From: Opitutia bacterium | GTDB lineage: Bacteria > Verrucomicrobiota > Verrucomicrobiia > Opitutales > T3Sed10-336 | Length of the DNA: 64,000 nucleotides | Direction of reading: 5' to 3' | Assembly (NCBI GenBank): GCA_003566885.1 | Contig: PXBO01000052.1 | Location: 1 to 64,000 of the forward strand | Shown: one piece after another, positions 9,220 through 20,557 of the stretch | Numbering within the stretch: the first letter of the stretch is position 1 | How the letters are laid out: each line of letters opens with the position of its first letter | Program-made: the position numbers and the translations under genes | The notes under the pieces: model-generated | The model's database searches: none | What the model was told of the DNA's origin: nothing | What the model saw: only the letters and a program-made list of their open reading frames with translations

Positions 9220-9879
9220 ATGATCAGACGACATGCGGCAGCTATTGTAACTGCATTTCTTGTTCCCGTGGCATTGGGAGCTCAGCTTGCGTTCGAGCAA
9301 ACGGAGATTCGTGTGGAGCTTGATTTCGGAGCCGAACGAGTCAGCCGGGATTTTGTCTTCACCAACAACGGAGATTTTCCGGTGGAGATTCTGGAAGTGC
9401 GCAGCAGTTGCGGATGCACCACGGCGGCGTTGGATAAGCACGTTTATGAGCCGGGAGAAAGCGGCACGATTACGGCGGAGTTCGACGTCGGTCAGCGGGT
9501 GGGCGAGCAGTCCAATTCCATTATGGTTCGCACTGACGATGCCGAGCGATCAATTCATTCACTGGTGCTGTTTGTGGACATTCCCAGGGCGTTGACGCTC
9601 TCTCATCGGTTTCTTATCTGGCAACGCGATGCCGATCCGGATACCCGTCGGGTGGAGGTGGTGTTTCATCCGAATGCACCGTACCGCCTGGAAGGGGTTG
9701 AAGTCGAAGGCGACGCCTTCCGGGTTGAATTGACCAAGGATGATGACGTGGAAGGCAGGTATTACCTGGACGTCACTCCGCTTGACCTTTCAGAGTCCGA
9801 CCGGGCGGCGATCGTTCTTCGCACCGAACCCGAGCCCTCGACTCCCCGGGCCTTTTCCCTTTACGCCTACGTCCGTTAA
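9220..9879 (+). CDS. DUF1573 domain-containing protein (secreted)
   Basis: Signal peptide; FTNNGDFPVEILEVRSSCGCTTAALDKHVYEPGESGTITAEFDV is a DUF1573 hallmark. Confidence 0.85.
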   Translation: MIRRHAAAIVTAFLVPVALGAQLAFEQTEIRVELDFGAERVSRDFVFTNNGDFPVEILEVRSSCGCTTAALDKHVYEPGESGTITAEFDVGQRVGEQSNSIMVRTDDAERSIHSLVLFVDIPRALTLSHRFLIWQRDADPDTRRVEVVFHPNAPYRLEGVEVEGDAFRVELTKDDDVEGRYYLDVTPLDLSESDRAAIVLRTEPEPSTPRAFSLYAYVR

Positions 9880-9970
9880 CCGGCAAAGCTTTTGGGTTTC
9901 GGCTGTGGCAAACGATTGTCCGTCAGGGGTTTTGCCGGCGCCTGGCGGTTTTCATGTTTCGGCGAGACCA

Positions 9971-11113
9971 TCACTCGCGGGGTAGGAATTCGACCTGCAG
10001 TCTGATAAAACGGCGGGGGGTTTCGCTTGAGATCGGCTCGGGGCAGGTGACGCGATAGCGGGGAACGCCGTCATGGTCGGGCTCGACGCTTTCCCAATCA
10101 GGATTAAGGGGTTGCCAGGAAATCAGGTCCTCGCTGACCTGGACCTCGTATAGCAGGTCGCTGCGATCGTCCCGCCCCGCTTCACCTTCCGGCCGGCGTA
10201 TCACAAGCGAGAGAAAACTTTCCTCTCCGTTCGTCACGATCTCGGGTTGCGGCAGGTAGGGAGCCGCGTTTTCGGTCGGCGGGTAGCCCAAAGCGTAAGC
10301 CAGTAGGTTGGGGTGCCCATCTCCGGAATAATCGGCGGTGAGGGCGGCATGCGGCTCGCGGGATCCTTCCCGGAACTGATTCAGAATCCACCAGTGGACT
10401 GGGGCGGGATCGACGAGAAAATAAAACAGGTGGGGCTGGCCCGAGGTTTCCTCGCCCGAGGTCAGAACACCGTGTGGCCGAAACCAAAGCAGGTAGATCC
10501 CGGGATCGCGAAAGATCCAGTTCTGGTGGGAATGTCCGCCGGCGAGTTCCCGCTTTTCCCCGTAAGGCGGACCGGCAGAGGTGCTGTCCATGAGGAGGTC
10601 GAGATTGGTGGGCCCGCCGGTGTAGAGGAAGAAATCTCCGGCGCCGTCGAAGTCGGACAATTCGATAAAAAATTCGCCGCCCGAAGGTCCCTGGAAAACG
10701 CCCTGACCGATTCCGTAGCCATTGAAACCCAGGAAAATAACGCCCTCCAACTCCGTGGAAATGACGCGATAATAGCTGTCGCCCGCTTGTCCGAGAAAGG
10801 AGAGGTTGGGGTGCGGATCGGATTCCAGGGTTCGCTTGGACGCTTCGGTGAGGTGGAGAATTGTCCGGTCGGGGGTCAGAATTTCTCCTGGGTCACCGGG
10901 AACGTTGAATGCCCCGCGGTCGAGCGTCATGGCCCATTCGTCCTCCTCCGGATCGTACCCCGTGCTCAAGTCGGTGTGTTCTTCGAAAACGACCACCCAG
11001 TCTTTCCAGGCAACCGCACCGGCCCACGCCGGCGCCGCCAGACCGGCCCAAGTGAACAGGTGTCCCAGGCCGATTAGCAAAACGGCCGTCGTTCTGAGCC
11101 TGGGCATCCTCAT
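9971..11113 (-). CDS. choice-of-anchor M domain-containing (surface-anchored-like) protein
   Basis: HTDLSTGYDPEEDEWAMTLD, GGHSHQNWIFRDPGIYLLWFRPHGVLTSGEETSG pattern; signal peptide; ATGA overlap with the upstream pseudopilin gene. Confidence 0.7.
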   Translation of the reverse strand: MRMPRLRTTAVLLIGLGHLFTWAGLAAPAWAGAVAWKDWVVVFEEHTDLSTGYDPEEDEWAMTLDRGAFNVPGDPGEILTPDRTILHLTEASKRTLESDPHPNLSFLGQAGDSYYRVISTELEGVIFLGFNGYGIGQGVFQGPSGGEFFIELSDFDGAGDFFLYTGGPTNLDLLMDSTSAGPPYGEKRELAGGHSHQNWIFRDPGIYLLWFRPHGVLTSGEETSGQPHLFYFLVDPAPVHWWILNQFREGSREPHAALTADYSGDGHPNLLAYALGYPPTENAAPYLPQPEIVTNGEESFLSLVIRRPEGEAGRDDRSDLLYEVQVSEDLISWQPLNPDWESVEPDHDGVPRYRVTCPEPISSETPRRFIRLQVEFLPRE

Positions 11114-11829
11114 CGCGGGCGGGCTTCCGGAGGCAGGGCGATATTGACGCCGCTTTCGATCTGCCGGCGAACTTCCGCAGCGGGAATGGTTTCGACATGG
11201 CCGTCGGCGTAAAGGTAGTTGGACGTTCCCTGAGTGCGATCCGAACTGCGGCTTCCCGCGTGATGGCGGTCGGGGGCGATGTCGTTGATGACCGCGGCCC
11301 AGTTATTGGCCCAGGACGAGGCATGGGTGTGGTCCTCGGTAACGGCCAGCCCGCGCGAATCGGAGCCGATAAAAGCCAGTTTTGTCTGGGACGGAGTTCG
11401 TAATCGGTCGAGGCGACGAAAATCGTCGCCCACGGGTTGGCCGAGTTCGTCCTGGGCGGCGAAAAAGACCAGGTCGTTCATCAGATAGCTGGTGGCGTAG
11501 TCGATTCGCCGCATTTCATCGGCTCGCGGATCGGCGGGGCAAATGCGGACGTCGTCCACGTCGTCGAGATAGGGCCGCAGGGAAAAGATCCAGGACTCCT
11601 CGGGATTAATGTGCGCCGTGCCCGGAAGCCATCCGTTGTGGTCGTCGGCGAATAACCGCAGGGCGGTCCCCAGTTGCCGCATGTTCGACGAGCATTGGGC
11701 CCGGTGGGCGGAAGCCCGGACCTGACCGACCACCGGGATCAGGATCGACGCCAGGATGCCGATGATGGCAATCACGGTCAGGAGTTCGATCAGGGTGAAC
11801 CCGGCCCGCGGTTTTCCGGTGATGGTCAT
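11110..11829 (-). CDS. prepilin-type N-terminal cleavage/methylation domain protein (pseudopilin)
   Basis: GFTLIELLTVIAIIGILASILIPV, CSSNMRQLGTALRLFADDHNGWLPG, C-terminal YADGHVETI. Confidence 0.9.
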   Translation of the reverse strand: MTITGKPRAGFTLIELLTVIAIIGILASILIPVVGQVRASAHRAQCSSNMRQLGTALRLFADDHNGWLPGTAHINPEESWIFSLRPYLDDVDDVRICPADPRADEMRRIDYATSYLMNDLVFFAAQDELGQPVGDDFRRLDRLRTPSQTKLAFIGSDSRGLAVTEDHTHASSWANNWAAVINDIAPDRHHAGSRSSDRTQGTSNYLYADGHVETIPAAEVRRQIESGVNIALPPEARPR

Positions 11830-12000
11830 TTATCGCAAAAATTTGGCAATATGTGGCAAAAGTGCAAGTGTCTTTTTAATAAGACTGCGGCGGAGCGGAA
11901 AAATTCCACGTTTCCGTGCTTGTTTTCGGTTATTGGTTAAGGGGTTTTATCACCATTTGCCATCAAACATTCCCTTCCAACCAATAATGGTGCTACGCTC

Positions 12001-12906
12001 CTACTCCCGCAGCTTTTTCCCCGTGGACAGCAGGTAATAGGCGGCGGCGCCGAAAACCGCAACCGAGGTCGCCACCAGAAGCAGGCCGAGTCCGACCGGC
12101 ACGTCGCTGACTCCGGTCATGCCGTAGCGCAGGCCGTTGACCATGTAGAGGATCGGATTGGCCAGCGACAGGGTGTCCCACGGGCCGGGGAGCATGTCGA
12201 TGGAATAAAAAACGCCGCCCAGAAACGTCAACGGCATGAGAAGGAAAGCCGGGAACAGGTTGATGTGATCGAAGTCTTCGGCCAGGATGGCCACGGTCAG
12301 CCCGAAAAGCGCGAAGGCGGTCGAAGTCAGGACCATGAACAGCAGGGTGAATGCCGGATTGTGCAGAGTGGATGCGCCCATAATTCCGGCCACCAGCCAA
12401 ATCAGGCAACCGATGATCATCGCCCGCAGCAACGAGGCGGCGATGTAGCCGACAATGAGCTGGATCGGAGTCAGGGGGGTCAGAAGAATATCCACCACCG
12501 AGCCGTGCACCTTGGAAATAAAGAGGGAGAATCCGGTGTTCAGAAAGGCGTTGTTGATCAGGTTCAACATGATCAGCCCCGGGACTAGAAAATCGACGTA
12601 GGGCACGCCTTGAATCTCCTCTAGGCGGCTGCCGAGCGAATAACCGAACACCACGAACCAAAGCATGGTGGTGAGAACCGGGCTCACGATGGTTTGGCCG
12701 GCGACTCTCATAAAACGCGCCAGTTCGCGACGGAAGAGCATCCAGGTTCCCCTCCACCCTCGATTGGACAGAGCACGCTGTTCCACCAGGCTGATGTGAC
12801 GCCGGGCGGCTTCGGCCGCGGAGTGCGACGGTACGCTTGCGTTGTGGTCCGCCGGCGAAGCGTTCGGCCGAAAGGCGAGTTCGGTGGCGTGATCGTTTGA
12901 ATTCAT
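12001..12906 (-). CDS. ABC-2 type transporter permease
   Basis: Six-helix hydrophobic profile; FMRVAGQTIVSPVLTTMLWFVVFGYSLG and FLGGVFYSIDMLPGPWDTLSLANPILYMVNGLRYGMTG typical of ABC-2 permeases; paired with an ATPase. Confidence 0.9.
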   Translation of the reverse strand: MNSNDHATELAFRPNASPADHNASVPSHSAAEAARRHISLVEQRALSNRGWRGTWMLFRRELARFMRVAGQTIVSPVLTTMLWFVVFGYSLGSRLEEIQGVPYVDFLVPGLIMLNLINNAFLNTGFSLFISKVHGSVVDILLTPLTPIQLIVGYIAASLLRAMIIGCLIWLVAGIMGASTLHNPAFTLLFMVLTSTAFALFGLTVAILAEDFDHINLFPAFLLMPLTFLGGVFYSIDMLPGPWDTLSLANPILYMVNGLRYGMTGVSDVPVGLGLLLVATSVAVFGAAAYYLLSTGKKLRE

Positions 12907-12939
12907 GGTCGGTGGGTCGTATCCCTTTGCTTTGTCGCG

Positions 12940-13911
12940 TCAGGAATCGGCGTGTACTACCTCGCGGAAGATATCCTCCAGACGGCTGCGCCCGCCGTCC
13001 AGAGTTTCTATTTCCAGTCCGGCGCCCTGTATGGCCTGGGTCAGACGGCGAACGGGGGCGCCGTCTCCTCCTGCGCCGTGATCGCGTTCAGGAAAGCTGA
13101 TACGCACCCGATCCGGTTCCGGGTTTTCCGGATGCAGGCCCTCCAGGGCGCTCAGCAATTCGCCGGTAGCCGGAGCGGAGAGACGAACCTCAATCCAACG
13201 CCTTCCGAAATGGCGCATCAGACTTTCCCGGGTATCGACGCGCAGCAACCGGCCCCGATTGACTATGCCGATGCGGTCGGCCAGGTTTTCCGCCTCTTCC
13301 AGGTAGTGTGTGGTCAACACGATGGTGGTGCCGCTGTCGCGGAGTTTCCGTATGTAAGCCCAGAGTTCTTCGCGCAGGTCCACGTCGACCCCGGCGGTGG
13401 GTTCGTCGAGGAAAAGCAAGGCTGGTTCGTGCATCAGGGCTTTGCAAACCATGAGCCGGCGCTTCATGCCGCCGGACAGCTTCCGGGTATTGGCCCGGGC
13501 CTTATCCTTGAGGGCAAAGGTTTCCAGCAAATGCTCCGTGCGCCGGCTCAGGTCGCGGCCGCCGAAGTAGCCACCCTGGTAGCGGACGGTTTCAGCGGTG
13601 GGGAAAAAACCGTCGAAATTCAACTCCTGCGGCACCAGTCCCACCAGTTGGCGGGTGACGCGGTAATCGGTGCGCACGTCGTAGCCGGCGACGCGTATTT
13701 CGCCTTCATATCGCGAAATGAGTCCGGTGATGCAGCCGATCATGGTGGTCTTGCCCGCGCCGTTGACCCCGAGCAGGGCGAAAATCTCGCCCGGTGCGAT
13801 GTCCAGGGAAACGTCGTTCACCGCGGTGAGCTCGCCGTAGCGTTTGGTAAGGTTGCGAATGGAAAGAAGGTGGGACTGAGAATAAGGTTCGACCATTTTA
13901 CTGAACGGCAC
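12940..13911 (-). CDS. ABC transporter ATP-binding protein
   Basis: Walker A GVNGAGKTT, signature LSGGMKRRL, Walker B LLFLDEPTAGVD. Confidence 0.95.
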   Translation of the reverse strand: MPFSKMVEPYSQSHLLSIRNLTKRYGELTAVNDVSLDIAPGEIFALLGVNGAGKTTMIGCITGLISRYEGEIRVAGYDVRTDYRVTRQLVGLVPQELNFDGFFPTAETVRYQGGYFGGRDLSRRTEHLLETFALKDKARANTRKLSGGMKRRLMVCKALMHEPALLFLDEPTAGVDVDLREELWAYIRKLRDSGTTIVLTTHYLEEAENLADRIGIVNRGRLLRVDTRESLMRHFGRRWIEVRLSAPATGELLSALEGLHPENPEPDRVRISFPERDHGAGGDGAPVRRLTQAIQGAGLEIETLDGGRSRLEDIFREVVHADS

Positions 13912-14046: not shown

Positions 14047-16074
14047 ATGGGAAACGCAAGAATCATGGACCTTAAGGAGTTTTGGGAGGAACTGAACGCC
14101 CCCGCCAAGCCGCTACTGGAGCAGAGTTGGCCCGAGAATAAACACCTCGGGTTTCTCGACGCCGTGCGGGAACTCCTGCCGGAGGCGCACAACCGTCTGG
14201 CCACCACGTTTCGCATTGCCCGGGAATTCAGCGACGTGCCCATTCTCGCCGTGGCCGGTCCCATCAACGGCGGCAAGTCGTCCCTGGTGGGTACCTTTCT
14301 GACCGAGGAAAGCCGCCGTCGAATTCCCACCGGTTTGAGCGGTCGCGAAGGAACGCAGCGGTTCGTGCTGTGGATTCCACGCTCATGGGAGAAGGACGAA
14401 GCGATTTGCACGCGCCTGGAGGAAATGCTGGCGCTGGTCTTCGGCGAGCCGCCGGAACGTTTGCCGGAAGATTCCGATGAGGCCCGGCAGTCGTATGCGA
14501 ATGTGGAGAGCTTCTCCCGGCCTCTGATCGCTTCGGACCTACAACTGGATCAACACGGAATCGCGTTGATGGACTGTCCCGACATGCAGCGCCAACAGTC
14601 CGGTGAGCGCGAAGGCGAAAACCGGAGGTTAGAGGCCATCGTCAAGGCGTCCGAACTCTGCGCCGGTGTCATCATCGTCACCCCCCGATCCCAACTGGAA
14701 ATCCGCGACCTGGCCGAACTCGTGCGCCGACGCCTCCCTCAGGCGGTGCGCGTTTACGCGGTCAACCTGATCCGTCCTCCCGAGACTCCGGAGCAGGTTT
14801 ACGAGGAGTTGCGCCAGGCGCTGGGCGCAGGGGACGAGGATTTGATCTGTTACGGCGCCTACGACTTCCTGGTGCCTTCCTCGCGGGACTTTGTTCCGGC
14901 CTGGGACGATTCCCCTTCAAGGCCGGAGGCGGAGCGCGTTCCCTGTTTTTTCCAAGTGGCCCGCGAGCCGGAGCGGAACCGTCCGGACAGCATTGCCCCG
15001 GACCGCTCGATTCTGCGTCTGGCGGAACGTATCCGTCCTTCCATGATTCGTCAGAAACGCCGGCGCGAAATCCTTGAGGACTTGTCGGGCCAGGTGCGAG
15101 AGGGCATCGCCGAACTGGAAAAGCGGGCCGAGACGGACCGGGAGCGGACGACCCGTGCGGCGGAGGAGCTGTACCAGTTGGCGCGGGACCTGATGCACGA
15201 CGCCGACGGGCGGCTGCGAATCAAGATCGATCCGGCCATTGCCATGAGTTTTAAAGAGAGCATGGAACGCACCGCGCCCCTCCACCTGAAACCGGTCATG
15301 GCTCTGCGCCGCCGCATGGTGGACCGTGCGGCGGAGGTCGTCGGACGCGGCCGTGACGCGATCGTGCGGGCCTTTCCCTGGATGCGCGGCGGCGACGCGA
15401 GGGGACGGATCGGGGCGATCAGAAAGAGGTTGCAGCAGCGATTGATCCACGAGGAGGACATCCGGAAGCTGCTCGACCGTTGGGCGGTGGCCGCGCAAAC
15501 CGGTGTTCCCGACCGAAAGTGGAAAACTGAAGCCCGCGATATCCTGGAACGGTACCGGATGGAGGAAAGCACCAATATGACACCGGAGGACTGGGACCGA
15601 ATCACGCGCCGCATCTGGAAAAGCACGGGCAAGATGCGGGCGACAGTGACCATTTTCGGCTCGTTTTTTGCCGGACTGGCCGCGGTCATCCTGATTCCCT
15701 TCGACGGCGGTGTTTCCGTGCTGGGCATCACGGCGTTGGAGTTGCTGGGGGTGCTTGGCTTCGGCGGTTTGATCGCGGGCGGCACCTTGAAACTCTTGGA
15801 GTTGGAAATGAAAGAAAAAATCGGCTACCGCCAGTTCGGAAACTTTCTCGCTATCGCCGGGGACCGCATCGGCATTCCGCGGGAGACGATAACCGCGGTT
15901 CTCCTTCAACACGATCTCTTCGAGCCCGCCATGGAGGAGCCCGTTTCGCTCCGGACTTTCGGCGTCGCGGAAGCGGACTGGAGGCTTTGCCGTATCGATC
16001 CACAAGGCCGCAAGGAACTCTTTCGCACGCTGGACCGTTTGACCCGGGAGGAACATGTCGCACACACCGCTTGA
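14047..16074 (+). CDS. dynamin-like membrane GTPase (GTPase A of an overlapping pair)
   Basis: P-loop GPINGGKSS, G3-like ALMDCPDMQ, G4-position VNLIRPPE, long charged helical middle, C-terminal hydrophobic hairpin (TIFGSFFAGLAAVILIPFDGG...LELLGVLGFGGLIAGG). Confidence 0.65.
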   Translation: MGNARIMDLKEFWEELNAPAKPLLEQSWPENKHLGFLDAVRELLPEAHNRLATTFRIAREFSDVPILAVAGPINGGKSSLVGTFLTEESRRRIPTGLSGREGTQRFVLWIPRSWEKDEAICTRLEEMLALVFGEPPERLPEDSDEARQSYANVESFSRPLIASDLQLDQHGIALMDCPDMQRQQSGEREGENRRLEAIVKASELCAGVIIVTPRSQLEIRDLAELVRRRLPQAVRVYAVNLIRPPETPEQVYEELRQALGAGDEDLICYGAYDFLVPSSRDFVPAWDDSPSRPEAERVPCFFQVAREPERNRPDSIAPDRSILRLAERIRPSMIRQKRRREILEDLSGQVREGIAELEKRAETDRERTTRAAEELYQLARDLMHDADGRLRIKIDPAIAMSFKESMERTAPLHLKPVMALRRRMVDRAAEVVGRGRDAIVRAFPWMRGGDARGRIGAIRKRLQQRLIHEEDIRKLLDRWAVAAQTGVPDRKWKTEARDILERYRMEESTNMTPEDWDRITRRIWKSTGKMRATVTIFGSFFAGLAAVILIPFDGGVSVLGITALELLGVLGFGGLIAGGTLKLLELEMKEKIGYRQFGNFLAIAGDRIGIPRETITAVLLQHDLFEPAMEEPVSLRTFGVAEADWRLCRIDPQGRKELFRTLDRLTREEHVAHTA

Positions 16075-17893
16075 AACCTGCCGCCGGCTTGCCGACGACG
16101 TGGAACGGCACGCCGGCGTGCTCGGTTTGGAATGGGAGGACCACGCCGCCGTGCTGCGGATGTGCGAGGACTTTCGTCGCTCCTGCGAAGAGGTGGCGGG
16201 CAACCGCGGCATCGATCACGTGACCATCGCGTTCACCGGTCCCAAGAATTCCGGAAAAACCCGCCTGTTGTCGCTCTTTGTCGAAGGAGAGGACGCGCGC
16301 CGGCGATTGCGGGTGGGGTACGGGCGTTCGGACGCCACGGAGAAGGTCACCTGGATCGGTCCCCGTCCGCCTGGGGATCTCCGGGAGGACTGCGAGGCAC
16401 ACATCCTGTGCTCGGAGGAGGACCTGGTCGATCTCGGGTTTCCCTACACGCTGGTCGACGTTCCCGGTCTCAACGAAGCGGACGAACGCCGCTCGGACGC
16501 CGCGGTGCGCGCGCTGGACAGCTCCCTGGTCAAGGTGCTGGTGACCGCCCGGCGAGAACTCGAGGACAAGGCGCTGGCGCACTACCTGGCGCGGGCCGAC
16601 GGGAGTCTGATTCTGCCGGTGATCAATTTCGTGCGCGCGGAGGTGCCGCAGGAGGATCTTGACGAGTTTCAGGCGATGTTGAGAGAGTCTTTGCCGCACA
16701 GCGAAGTGCGCCCGCCGGTGCTGGTGGGTGATGCGGCCATCGGCGGCGACGACGGCCAGACCAAGGGCGGCGATGAGTCAATCCTGCCGGACGATGTCGA
16801 GCGTCTTCGACGCGCCATTCGCGATGCGGCGGGACCCCGGCGGCTGCGGGATTTGCCCCAGGCGCGGCTTAATCGCAAGTATCGACGTTTCAAGGACGAC
16901 GTGGGGCGCTTTATGGGGGAGCGCCTGCCCGCCAGCCGGCGGGCGCTTGATGCCTTGCGCGAGACCGAAGAAGGGTTGCCGGGTGAGACCCTGGGGCACC
17001 TGCTCGGATCGGATCGGGCCTTGCGGGCGGGGGTGCGTCAGCGCCTGCGCGCCACTCTGCTGCAGCGCACCCCGTACGTGTTCTTCCCCTGGCGTGCGTT
17101 TTTGGCCCTGGCCAATCTGCTGCACGGCGCGGTGGAACGCATCCCGTTCGCCCTCATGGGCAGCATCCCGGCCTGGGTTTCCGGCGCCTTCACCGCGGCA
17201 CGCAACGTGAAGGACGCCCGCGATTTTTCGCGCGGCGTGGAAGGGGGCGTGCGCGGATACGTGGAGGGCGCGGTCCGGGAAAAGATCCTCCCCAAGGTCC
17301 GCGATCTCGAATTCGTCCTCAATCGGGAGTTGCGTAGCGGCGGGGAGGAAATACCCGCCGCCGCGGGAGACTTGCAGGTGAAGATCTCGGGACTCGACAA
17401 CCTGCAGGCCCGTTCGTCGGAGATCTTTCATTCCGCGGTGGATCGCTGGGCGCCCTCGCGCGCCGCGGCGACACTGACCGGCCTGGCCGGATTTCTGATT
17501 TTCTGGGGGCTCTTCGCCTGGCCGGTTTACGGGTTGTATTTGGATTTCTTTGACGCCGTGCGCGCGCTTTGGACGGACCATAGCGGCGCTTCCGGGAGCT
17601 TCCCCTCCGCGCCCTTCGGCATGTTGGGGACCAGTTTGCTGCTCGCCTTGTTGCCCATGGGTTTTTTCATGCTCGCCTCAGTCTCGCTCCTGGTCCGGCC
17701 CCGCCGGGTGACGGCCTGCCTGGAACAGATCCGCGGCGGCCACAGCGAAACCGTCGCTGACCTCGTGCGCGCCGGCCTGCTCACCATCGAAGTCGAACAG
17801 CCGCGCATCGACGCCTGCCTCTTTCTCTTGAAACTCGCTCCCCAGGAAGGCGAGGGGAACCGCTCTGACCATACGGACTCACCCAAGGCGTGA
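16055..17893 (+). CDS. dynamin-like membrane GTPase (GTPase B of an overlapping pair)
   Basis: P-loop GPKNSGKTR, G3 LVDVPGLNE, G4-position INFVRAE, helical middle, C-terminal TM segments (LTGLAGFLIFWGLFAWPVYGLYL, GTSLLLALLPMGFFMLASVSLLV); overlaps GTPase A by 20 bp. Confidence 0.65.
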   Translation: MSHTPLETCRRLADDVERHAGVLGLEWEDHAAVLRMCEDFRRSCEEVAGNRGIDHVTIAFTGPKNSGKTRLLSLFVEGEDARRRLRVGYGRSDATEKVTWIGPRPPGDLREDCEAHILCSEEDLVDLGFPYTLVDVPGLNEADERRSDAAVRALDSSLVKVLVTARRELEDKALAHYLARADGSLILPVINFVRAEVPQEDLDEFQAMLRESLPHSEVRPPVLVGDAAIGGDDGQTKGGDESILPDDVERLRRAIRDAAGPRRLRDLPQARLNRKYRRFKDDVGRFMGERLPASRRALDALRETEEGLPGETLGHLLGSDRALRAGVRQRLRATLLQRTPYVFFPWRAFLALANLLHGAVERIPFALMGSIPAWVSGAFTAARNVKDARDFSRGVEGGVRGYVEGAVREKILPKVRDLEFVLNRELRSGGEEIPAAAGDLQVKISGLDNLQARSSEIFHSAVDRWAPSRAAATLTGLAGFLIFWGLFAWPVYGLYLDFFDAVRALWTDHSGASGSFPSAPFGMLGTSLLLALLPMGFFMLASVSLLVRPRRVTACLEQIRGGHSETVADLVRAGLLTIEVEQPRIDACLFLLKLAPQEGEGNRSDHTDSPKA

Positions 17894-17911
17894 GGTAAGC
17901 GCCCAATCAGC

Positions 17912-18060
17912 GTTATACTCCCCGTCGTCAAGTTTTCGGAATCCCTATGTAGCGTGTTCGCTTGCGAACGCCCTCTCTGACGCAGGCCCGCGCAATCCCG
18001 CCTGGATACATGGGGTCCGCCACTGATCGGGAAGGCGTCCGCAAGCGGACACGCCACGGG
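17912..18060 (+). repeat. intergenic structured repeat family 1, copy B (two hairpins)
   Basis: GTTATACTCCCCGTCGTCAAGTTTTCGGAATCCC; hairpins GTTCGC-TT-GCGAAC (17956-17969) and GTCCGC-AA-GCGGAC (18037-18050). Confidence 0.8.
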
Positions 18061-18073
18061 GAAGGAAGACCCT

Positions 18074-19477
18074 TTAGCGGTTGGGCCCGGCGATTTCCTC
18101 CAGGCGCTCGTCCAGCGCGTCGCGTGAAAACCAGCGTCCGTGCCGGACGACTCCTTCGATGGCCTGGGCGTTGGCGAGGTCTTCCAGGGGATTGGCGCGC
18201 AAGAGGACCAGGTCGGCTTTGAAGCCCTCGGCGATTTTGCCGAAGACGTCTTCCTCGCCGAGGTACTTGGCGGGATTGACCGTGCCGGTTACCAAGACCT
18301 CGTACGGAGTGAGGCCGGCGCTTTCCATGACCGCCATTTCACGGTGAACGGAGAAGCCGGGGACGTTGAACCATTGCGGTGCATCCGAGCCGAGGAGGAG
18401 GCCGGCGCCGGCGTCGTGCAGCGCTTTGATAAGATCGAGTCGAACCTGGATGAAGGCATCGCCCGCTTCCTGGTCGTAATGGCTTTCATTACGAAAATTG
18501 GTCACCCAGTTTATCCAGCCATCGACGATGTTCTGCGGCATGTACCTGAACTCGGACCGTTCCTCGCGAACCGTTTCCAGGTCCACCGCGAAGGCGCTGT
18601 GGATGATGGTTTCAGTCGGCACGTTCCACACCCCGGCTTCTTTGGTTTTTTCCACGATAGCCTGGAGGCGGTCCGGCTGGGCGTAGGGCGCCAGGCGGTA
18701 GCCGAAGAAACCGCCGTCGACGCCTTCGGTTTCCTCGGGGTCCACCAGGGTCGGCATGTAGGCGTCGAAGTGATCGATGGTGGAGTAACCGGCTTCGAGA
18801 GCCCGGGGAACCCCGACCGAGCCCGGGACGTGACCGGAGAATTCGATGTTGGCGGCGTGGGCGGCTTCCGCCATGGCGTTGAAGGCGTCCAGCGGCATGC
18901 CCCAGAAGATCTTGAGCAAATCGTAGCCGGCCTCGGCCTGCTGCCGCGCGATACGGATCCCGTCGGCCGGAGTCTGCACGTTGCCGCCGAGCCCGGGACC
19001 CGCTGAAATCAGACGGGGTCCGTCGACGGACCCGTCGGCCAGTTGCTGACGCAATTGCAGGTGCACCGGAGCTCCCAGCATGCTGCGCGCCAGGGTGACC
19101 CCGTTGGCCAGGTACAGAAAGGCCACATCTTCGCGGTACTGCCGGTCATCGCCCTGACCCGGCATGTGAGCGTGCATTTCCGCCAGGCCGGGCATGAGGT
19201 AGTGGCCTTCGGCCTCGATCACCTGGGCGCCGCCGGGAACGTCGGCATCAGCTTCCGGGGCGATGCTCACGATGCGTCCGGCATCGATCACCACGGTTTG
19301 GCCCCGCAGGACGCGTTCCTCGTCCATCGGGATTACGTTGACTCCGGTGAAAACCAGCGTTCCTTGGGATCGGAGGTCGGTGAGTCCCAGAAACACGAGG
19401 ACGATGGCGACGAGGGTAAAGCGTGAGGCTGTCATGGTTGCGTTCCTTTCGGTAGTTCGGTTAAACGTCGGGCGCAA
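18074..19477 (-). CDS. amidohydrolase family protein (secreted)
   Basis: VIEAEGHYLMPGLAEMHAHMP, EFSGHVPG, GLLLGSDAPQWFNVPGFSVHREM typical metal-dependent amidohydrolase motifs. Confidence 0.9.
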   Translation of the reverse strand: MRPTFNRTTERNATMTASRFTLVAIVLVFLGLTDLRSQGTLVFTGVNVIPMDEERVLRGQTVVIDAGRIVSIAPEADADVPGGAQVIEAEGHYLMPGLAEMHAHMPGQGDDRQYREDVAFLYLANGVTLARSMLGAPVHLQLRQQLADGSVDGPRLISAGPGLGGNVQTPADGIRIARQQAEAGYDLLKIFWGMPLDAFNAMAEAAHAANIEFSGHVPGSVGVPRALEAGYSTIDHFDAYMPTLVDPEETEGVDGGFFGYRLAPYAQPDRLQAIVEKTKEAGVWNVPTETIIHSAFAVDLETVREERSEFRYMPQNIVDGWINWVTNFRNESHYDQEAGDAFIQVRLDLIKALHDAGAGLLLGSDAPQWFNVPGFSVHREMAVMESAGLTPYEVLVTGTVNPAKYLGEEDVFGKIAEGFKADLVLLRANPLEDLANAQAIEGVVRHGRWFSRDALDERLEEIAGPNR

Positions 19478-19598
19478 GCGGTTGTTCGCAAGCAGGATGC
19501 CTTTTATTCTGGCGAAATTTGCCGGCAGGTCAAGCGGGGACTCCTGATTGTGTTTTTGCTGGCGAAGCTAAATGGGGTTTGCTACGGTTTCGATTATT

Positions 19599-20528
19599 AT
19601 GAAATTCAATCCCACTATTGATGAGTTGCGCCGGCGGCCCGGCGCATGGTTGTTTGCGCTGGCCGGCGCGCTATACATCACCGGGGGGCTTCCTGTTGCG
19701 GTTGAGGCGTCCGAGGCGCAGGATGACGAAGTAAAAAAGCTGGTGCTGGTGGCTGGAAACCCGAGTCACGGCCGCGGCCAGCACGAACACAACGCGGGGG
19801 TGCGGCTCTTCAAGGATTGTCTGGATGATTTTCCGGGACTTGAGGTGACGGCCCACTACAACGGCTGGCCGGAAGACGAGAATGCCTTTGCCGAAGCCGA
19901 CGCGATCCTGATTTACATGGACGGAGGAGGCGGGCACCCGATTCTTCGTCGCCAACGTCAGGAGCAAATGGCGGAATTGATGGAACGCGGGGTGGGGCTG
20001 GCAGCCTTCCATTACGCGGTGGAGGTGCCCGCGGATCCGGCGGGCGATCATTTTCAGGATTGGATCGGCGGGTTTTACGAGACCAATTTTTCGGTCAACC
20101 CGATCTGGACCGCCGAATTTAAAGAGTTTCCGGACCATCCGATAACCCGGGGAGTGGAGCCTTTCGCTATCCGCGACGAATGGTACTTCAATATTCGTTT
20201 TCGCCCCGAAATGGAAGGGGTGGTGTCCATTCTGCAGGCCACGCCATCGGACGACACTCGTGGCGGCCCCTACGTTCACCCGCAAGGCCCGTATCCGCAT
20301 ATCGTCGAGGCCAGCGGCCGGGCGGAAACCCTTGCCTGGGCGGTGGAACGCGAGAACGGAGGCCGTGGTTTCGGCTTTACCGGAGGACATTTTCATCAAA
20401 ACTGGGGCGATCCGAATTTTCGCAAAATCGCGTTGAATGCACTGGTTTGGATTACCGGCGCCGAGGTCCCTGAGAATGGTGTTGCCTGCACGGTGACCGA
20501 AGAATATCTCGAAGCTCATCTCGATTGA
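19599..20528 (+). CDS. ThuA domain-containing protein
   Basis: LVLVAGNPSHGRGQHEHNAGVRLF, GVGLAAFHYAVE, GRGFGFTGGHFHQNWGDPNFRKIALNALVW; start taken at MKFNPTIDE. Confidence 0.85.
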   Translation: MKFNPTIDELRRRPGAWLFALAGALYITGGLPVAVEASEAQDDEVKKLVLVAGNPSHGRGQHEHNAGVRLFKDCLDDFPGLEVTAHYNGWPEDENAFAEADAILIYMDGGGGHPILRRQRQEQMAELMERGVGLAAFHYAVEVPADPAGDHFQDWIGGFYETNFSVNPIWTAEFKEFPDHPITRGVEPFAIRDEWYFNIRFRPEMEGVVSILQATPSDDTRGGPYVHPQGPYPHIVEASGRAETLAWAVERENGGRGFGFTGGHFHQNWGDPNFRKIALNALVWITGAEVPENGVACTVTEEYLEAHLD

Positions 20529-20557
20529 GTCGTGGCAACCTCGACCTTATAGACATT

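Follow-up and report, generated by a model that had tools for sequence, protein, structure and literature searches.

A co-inherited pair of divergent dynamin-like proteins in Opitutales and Planctomycetota: a candidate heterotypic membrane machine

The locus and its sequence features

The stretch of DNA considered here, 64,000 nucleotides long and referred to as the window, belongs to a 2.5-Mb MAG that is 68% complete. It carries two adjacent genes on the plus strand, named A and B in what follows, whose ORFs have 20 bp in common. Gene A (14047–16074, 675 aa) is predicted to encode a membrane-anchored dynamin-like NTPase subunit, and gene B (16055–17893, 612 aa) its dynamin-like partner, both assignments drawing on the ORF list, the orthologues, the structural models, and the Foldseek searches. 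An alternative ATG start codon for gene A lies 18 bp downstream, and a Shine-Dalgarno-like GGGAGG that could serve gene B (16046–16051, plus strand, as are all the features of the pair) can be read inside the end of A, just 5' of the B ATG.

From its N-terminus, A presents the G1 motif or P-loop GPINGGKSS (14257–14283; residues 71–79), the G2/switch I segment TGLSGREGTQRFVLWIPRS (14329–14385), in which Thr103 and Arg105 are invariant, the G3 motif DCPD (14572–14583; residues 176–179), with Asp where DxPG has Gly, and, at the G4 position, VNLIRPPE (14761–14784), where Asn240 is retained without the Asp of NKxD. Then come a helical neck/trunk region, as delimited by the secondary structure of the model (15037–15636; residues ~331–530), and the membrane segments (15646–15798; residues 534–552 and ~556–584), with a conserved turn of the type P-[FL]-D-G-G or PLDFGG.

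Protein B has its own P-loop, GPKNSGKTR (16238–16264; residues 62–70), a canonical G3 motif, DVPG (16457–16468; residues 135–138), and INFVRAEV at the G4 position (16622–16645), which is variable across the B family. Further on, a conserved amphipathic stretch, FPWR...GAVERIP..MGS.P (17084–17209; residues 344–385), falls in a low-confidence region of the model and is a candidate membrane-contact element, and two transmembrane helices are predicted by hydropathy in every relative examined (17462–17695; residues 470–494 and 524–547). More generally, the C-terminal hydrophobic helices, as judged by hydropathy only, are kept in all the A and B relatives examined. An initial annotation of the locus had listed the two ORFs with their lengths and overlap, both P-loops, the G3-like segments DCPD(MQ) and DVPG(LNE), and the C-terminal hydrophobic segments; the ORF coordinates bear out the first, the motifs are found as described, and the hydrophobic segments prove to be conserved.

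Family search and distribution

Neither A nor B scores above any cut-off in Pfam or NCBIfam, and PDB sequences searched with phmmer and with profiles give no family match for either protein, in line with the first impression that no named family could be recognized. Some EngA/HflX-type PDB sequences did match, and these were dismissed as covering the P-loop stretch only.

Orthologues of A occur in seven of the eight genomes of the window's own family, and B is found in all seven. A pattern scan of GTDB genomes gave 31 A loci; the taxa with such loci include Opitutales, many Pirellula-like Planctomycetota, a Verrucomicrobiales, Ca. Thiobius (Gammaproteobacteria), and a Sterolibacterium bin. In the last (L050), A is truncated at the contig end and no B was found in the bin, and the contig is possibly a contaminant or the product of a distant transfer. 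Phylum searches with B alone or with a 7-row B profile (289 or 388 genomes) returned no further full-length B, and the A profile, run on 388 genomes, had its full-length match only in the window's genome, the others being P-loop matches of 40–60 residues. Within the class of Ca. Thiobius, the "matches" in the other 50 genomes were discounted because they are short, marginal, and nearly all at the P-loop.

Co-inheritance and common origin of A and B

The class centered on a Pirellula genome offered a balanced sample. Full-length A is present in 18 of its 249 genomes and full-length B in the identical 18, the other 231 having neither and orphans being nil, in a survey that examined the best 4–5 candidates per genome and from which very divergent copies may be hidden. 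The chance that two independent sets of 18 genomes coincide exactly is ~1e-27, a value to be read with the genomes being non-independent through shared ancestry. Among genomes reached via A loci, 14 of 15 have B, and the exception holds a truncated A only.

In 35 loci, B lies directly 3' of A and in the same orientation, yet both genes are also kept where they are unlinked (G291, G293, G455, G456, G458, G462, G484, G612, and G700): they are on separate contigs in G612 and G484, ~13 kb apart on one contig in G700, and apart in the Pirellula relatives G455, G456, G458, and G462, in at least two of which A precedes ribosomal protein genes. The tree of A and that of B are largely congruent. Taken together, the co-presence, the retention of both genes when unlinked, and the largely congruent trees favor an obligate functional partnership, so that the pairing proposed in the initial annotation stands, with 18 of 18 genomes carrying both members, while the adjacency of the genes is not required. 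From this co-inheritance only, we infer that A and B are in physical contact. What makes this case unusually clean is that the one-to-one relation is strict in Opitutales, Planctomycetota, a Verrucomicrobiales, and a gammaproteobacterium, and holds for unlinked genes as well.

Two arrangements seen along the way deserve a mention. In the Pirellula relatives L043 and L044, the S10 ribosomal protein operon comes immediately after A, and B is found at another place in the genome. On a 597-kb scaffold of Pirellulaceae KatS3mg110 (L045), the A-B pair and its flanks occur twice, at 9833–13680 and 16688–20535, ~6.9 kb apart. Gene lengths and scores look identical in the two copies, and a recent tandem duplication or an assembly error may be the reason.

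The G domains of A and B are homologous, with similarity far above chance in all three comparisons: blastp gives E=3e-7, the 7-row profiles give E=2e-9 across 148 aligned columns, and the deep profiles reach E=3.6e-12 in an alignment of 329 columns that covers the G domain and continues into the helical part. The earlier view of two diverged, related G domains is thereby sustained. The two proteins would have arisen by an ancient duplication.

Nucleotide-binding motifs across the family

Motifs were counted over 46 A sequences, 44 of them complete, and 44 B relatives. In A, the P-loop Lys77, the switch I catalytic-type Thr103, and the G4 Asn are each present in 44 of the 44 complete sequences, and G3 reads DCPD, with Asp in the place of Gly, in all 46 sequences. 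The first distant A set was found by DNA patterns that include DCPD, and its invariance there is partly selected; in A sequences from genomes found by profile, without the DCPD pattern, DCPD is present in all too. The residues after the G4 Asn vary, namely NKxR in some planctomycetes, NRVPR in Pirellula, and NLIRPP in the window, and (N/T)KxD at G4 occurs in no A or B sequence, where NKxR, NRVPR, NLIR, or outright loss is met instead.

Protein B is more permissive: the P-loop Lys is kept in 41 of 44 relatives, Thr95 in 39 (Ser in 3), DxPG in 40, and the G4 Asn in only 15. Three B proteins (L040, L045, and L153), which cluster together in both the A and the B trees, have neither P-loop nor DxPG, and two others (L151 and L152) have GKG in place of GKT.

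The initial annotation had singled out a shared, unusual pattern at G4. In the AlphaFold models, VNLIRPPE and INFVRAEV do sit at the end of strand beta-5 (A strand 234–242, B strand 185–192), that is, at the G4 position, but the pattern is not family-wide, given the scarcity of the Asn in B and the variable residues after it in A. The likeness is thus a local resemblance, and the invariant peculiarity of A is DCPD rather than the G4 pattern. Because B degenerates while A does not, A appears to be the essential nucleotide-binding subunit, and B seems able to become a pseudo-GTPase, as in the clade just mentioned. As A has neither DxPG nor NKxD, its use of GTP is not assured.

That the P-loop is gone from some B proteins would also suit a regulatory subunit, and the pair may be pictured as a signaling switch whose nucleotide state gates a membrane effector. 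The model for such a switch is RdcA/RdcB of E. coli (YjdA/YjcZ; PMC6510439), where RdcA is a dynamin-like GTPase encoded beside its partner and the partner's nucleotide state controls a diguanylate cyclase. RdcA/RdcB differ in being soluble, whereas membrane helices are retained in both A and B, in acting on a diguanylate cyclase, with no constant effector gene near A/B, and in that RdcB resembles no known family. We regard a switch of this kind as unlikely, even if it fares best among the alternatives to a membrane-remodeling pair.

Fold and placement in the dynamin superfamily

The AlphaFold2 models of A and B (pLDDT 78.8 and 77.3, with the membrane regions uncertain at pLDDT <50) both place the G domain at the N-terminus, followed by long helices and, toward the C-terminus, by membrane helices. 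When the PDB was searched with Foldseek at E<=1e-3, all 17 matches of A and all 27 of B belonged to the dynamin superfamily, with Drp1, BDLP, Cj-DLP1/2, IniA, SynDLP, and dynamin-1 among those of A, and BDLP, Cj-DLP1/2, Fzo1, mitofusins, LeoA, SynDLP, EHD, Drp1, and IniA among those of B. The dynamin-like character proposed from the letters alone, and the fold check that had been suggested against dynamin, YcjX/DUF697, and septin, thus come out on the dynamin side, the Campylobacter DLP1/2 pair included. Against solved dynamins, global TM-scores reach only 0.17–0.34 (by query length), as expected for hinged proteins with uncertain membrane parts, and the placement is therefore made at the superfamily level. 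With regard to a dynamin neck/BSE and trunk, what is found is long helices in the models and dynamin-type matches exclusively at E<=1e-3, together with these low global scores.

At the sequence level, the Pfam Dynamin_N model (PF00350) gives A 12 bits and is not passed (cut-off 27), and its best values within the family are E=4.9e-5 (A) and 1.5e-4 (B), in scattered members. The LeoA/LeoBC models reach at best E=1.1e-7 in any member, and the window protein matches them over the G-domain region only. The deep profile of A aligns with canonical DLPs of A/B-bearing genomes over 193 columns, that is, the whole G domain (E=1.9e-9).

Slightly less probable than the switch is the proposal that A and B are a membrane GTPase pair of another TRAFAC branch (YcjX/DUF697, DUF3482/DUF2868, or HflX/Der-like), and that the resemblance to dynamins is spurious and due to their long helices. 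Its appeal lies in the low TM-scores and in the best simple sequence matches, which are generic P-loop stretches (MMR_HSR1, HflX, and Der). It is at odds with the Pfam results, where no A/B member scanned matches YcjX/DUF463, DUF697, DUF3482, DUF2868, or septin; with the HflX control, which the deep profile of A matches over 44 columns of P-loop only (E=1.6e-7) and the deep profile of B up to a point before the G4 strand; and with Foldseek, in which non-dynamin G proteins rank behind dynamins, entering at ~5e-3 for B and 1.5e-2 for A.

Gene neighborhood

The genes flanking A and B are mostly housekeeping and differ between lineages, and no neighbor that might serve as a functional clue recurs generally across the loci. 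In the window, an ABC-2 type exporter (ATPase and permease; 12001–13911, minus strand) is divergent from A, and it adjoins the pair in related genera too; L016/L018 have a large upstream ORF, which was dismissed as an antisense shadow of the ABC ATPase. Among Pirellula relatives, a divergent gene immediately 5' of A encodes a small membrane-anchored protein in L030 (9125–9649, minus strand) and 13 similar loci. Five loci of one planctomycete clade (L143, 13222–14109; L147, 7015–7758, minus strand; L148; L150; and L144) have a MotA/TolQ/ExbB-type gene directly 3' of B in the same orientation, a slight hint at an envelope function.

The least probable of the readings weighed, that A/B is a dynamin-like anti-phage defense which detects or contains membrane damage by phages, may claim the weak similarity to the LeoA/LeoBC models of PADLOC and the patchy presence in the Pirellula-centered class, but it sits poorly with a gene A that is stable in the window's own family, with largely congruent trees and the retention of unlinked partners, and with diverse housekeeping flanks in which no recurrent defense family appears among the 25 commonest of 126 families.

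Proposed mechanism and comparison with known systems

The best reading is that A and B are a previously unnamed, heterotypic pair of bacterial dynamin-like proteins, A being the constant, nucleotide-binding member. In its full form, to which we give a probability of about 0.58, the two together make up a membrane-anchored heteromer, a machine belonging to the dynamin superfamily, with A binding NTP and B being structural or regulatory, at work in envelope maintenance or membrane remodeling. The subunits would associate via their G domains and/or trunks, and each is predicted to be anchored in the inner membrane by the hydrophobic helices near its C-terminus. By analogy with the superfamily, NTP bound by A would probably be hydrolyzed to completion across the A-B interface, and the ensuing movement of neck and trunk may tether, bend, or seal the membrane. 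Protein A would be indispensable since its P-loop never degenerates, and B would act in structure or regulation, presumably as a pseudo-GTPase in one clade. A role in the envelope or in membrane remodeling rather than in mobile defense is weakly supported, and against this best explanation it counts that no gene neighbor fixes the cellular role.

To our knowledge, most bacterial dynamins are without a known function, and the reason for their pairing is an open question. Bacterial DLPs occur mostly in pairs, and the closest parallel is Cj-DLP1/DLP2 of Campylobacter jejuni (PDB 5owv and 5oxf; PMC6104087), two different DLPs with adjacent genes and a heterotypic partnership, which are among the best Foldseek matches of both A and B. 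GTP turnover by Cj-DLP1/2 requires both P-loops (PMC6104087), whereas B may have none, a difference that also weighs against our explanation; moreover, A differs at G3, with DCPD in place of DxPG, and in lacking NKxD, and both A and B differ in their predicted C-terminal transmembrane helices. LeoABC of ETEC (PDB 4aur; PMC4159319) likewise comprises bacterial dynamin-like partners: LeoA alone bound no nucleotide, and a heterodimer with LeoBC was proposed by its authors. Its G-domain HMMs match weakly and B matches the LeoA fold, but only G-domain stretches match, with marginal scores, the gene neighborhoods are other, and LeoBC is a split gene, unlike A/B. Nostoc BDLP (PDB 2j69) and mitofusin/Fzo1 are top or near-top fold matches, with a G domain, a long helical neck/trunk, and a hydrophobic membrane element; they differ in being homomeric or made of similar paralogues, in their canonical G motifs, and in having no detectable full-length sequence similarity to A/B. 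If the inference is right, A and B would work like the known DLP pairs, yet they fail sequence membership in each of them and their G motifs deviate.

More tentatively, A may be a motor subunit outside canonical GTP chemistry, with DxPD at switch II and the guanine-specifying Asp lost in all, in an obligate heteromer whose partner is becoming a pseudo-GTPase; we hold this possible but doubtful. Were it true, A/B would be a distinct dynamin-type machine, which may use another nucleotide or be a nucleotide-locked membrane tether. The natural variants in which one partner lacks nucleotide binding offer a way to test which of the two G domains powers a heterotypic dynamin, and the family lets the dispensability of DxPG and NKxD be tested. 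Little is known of what makes the elaborate inner-membrane shapes of Planctomycetota, and for this reason a membrane-remodeling candidate in this phylum is of interest.

Other dynamin-like proteins in the same genomes

Several genomes with A and B also carry canonical DLPs, and A/B are therefore not replacements for them. In genomes of the window's family, L161/L176 (G294:C74) and L162/L177 (G292:C59) each hold two adjacent Dynamin_N proteins of ~745 and ~460 aa, a second and separate DLP pair of which one member is EHD-like.
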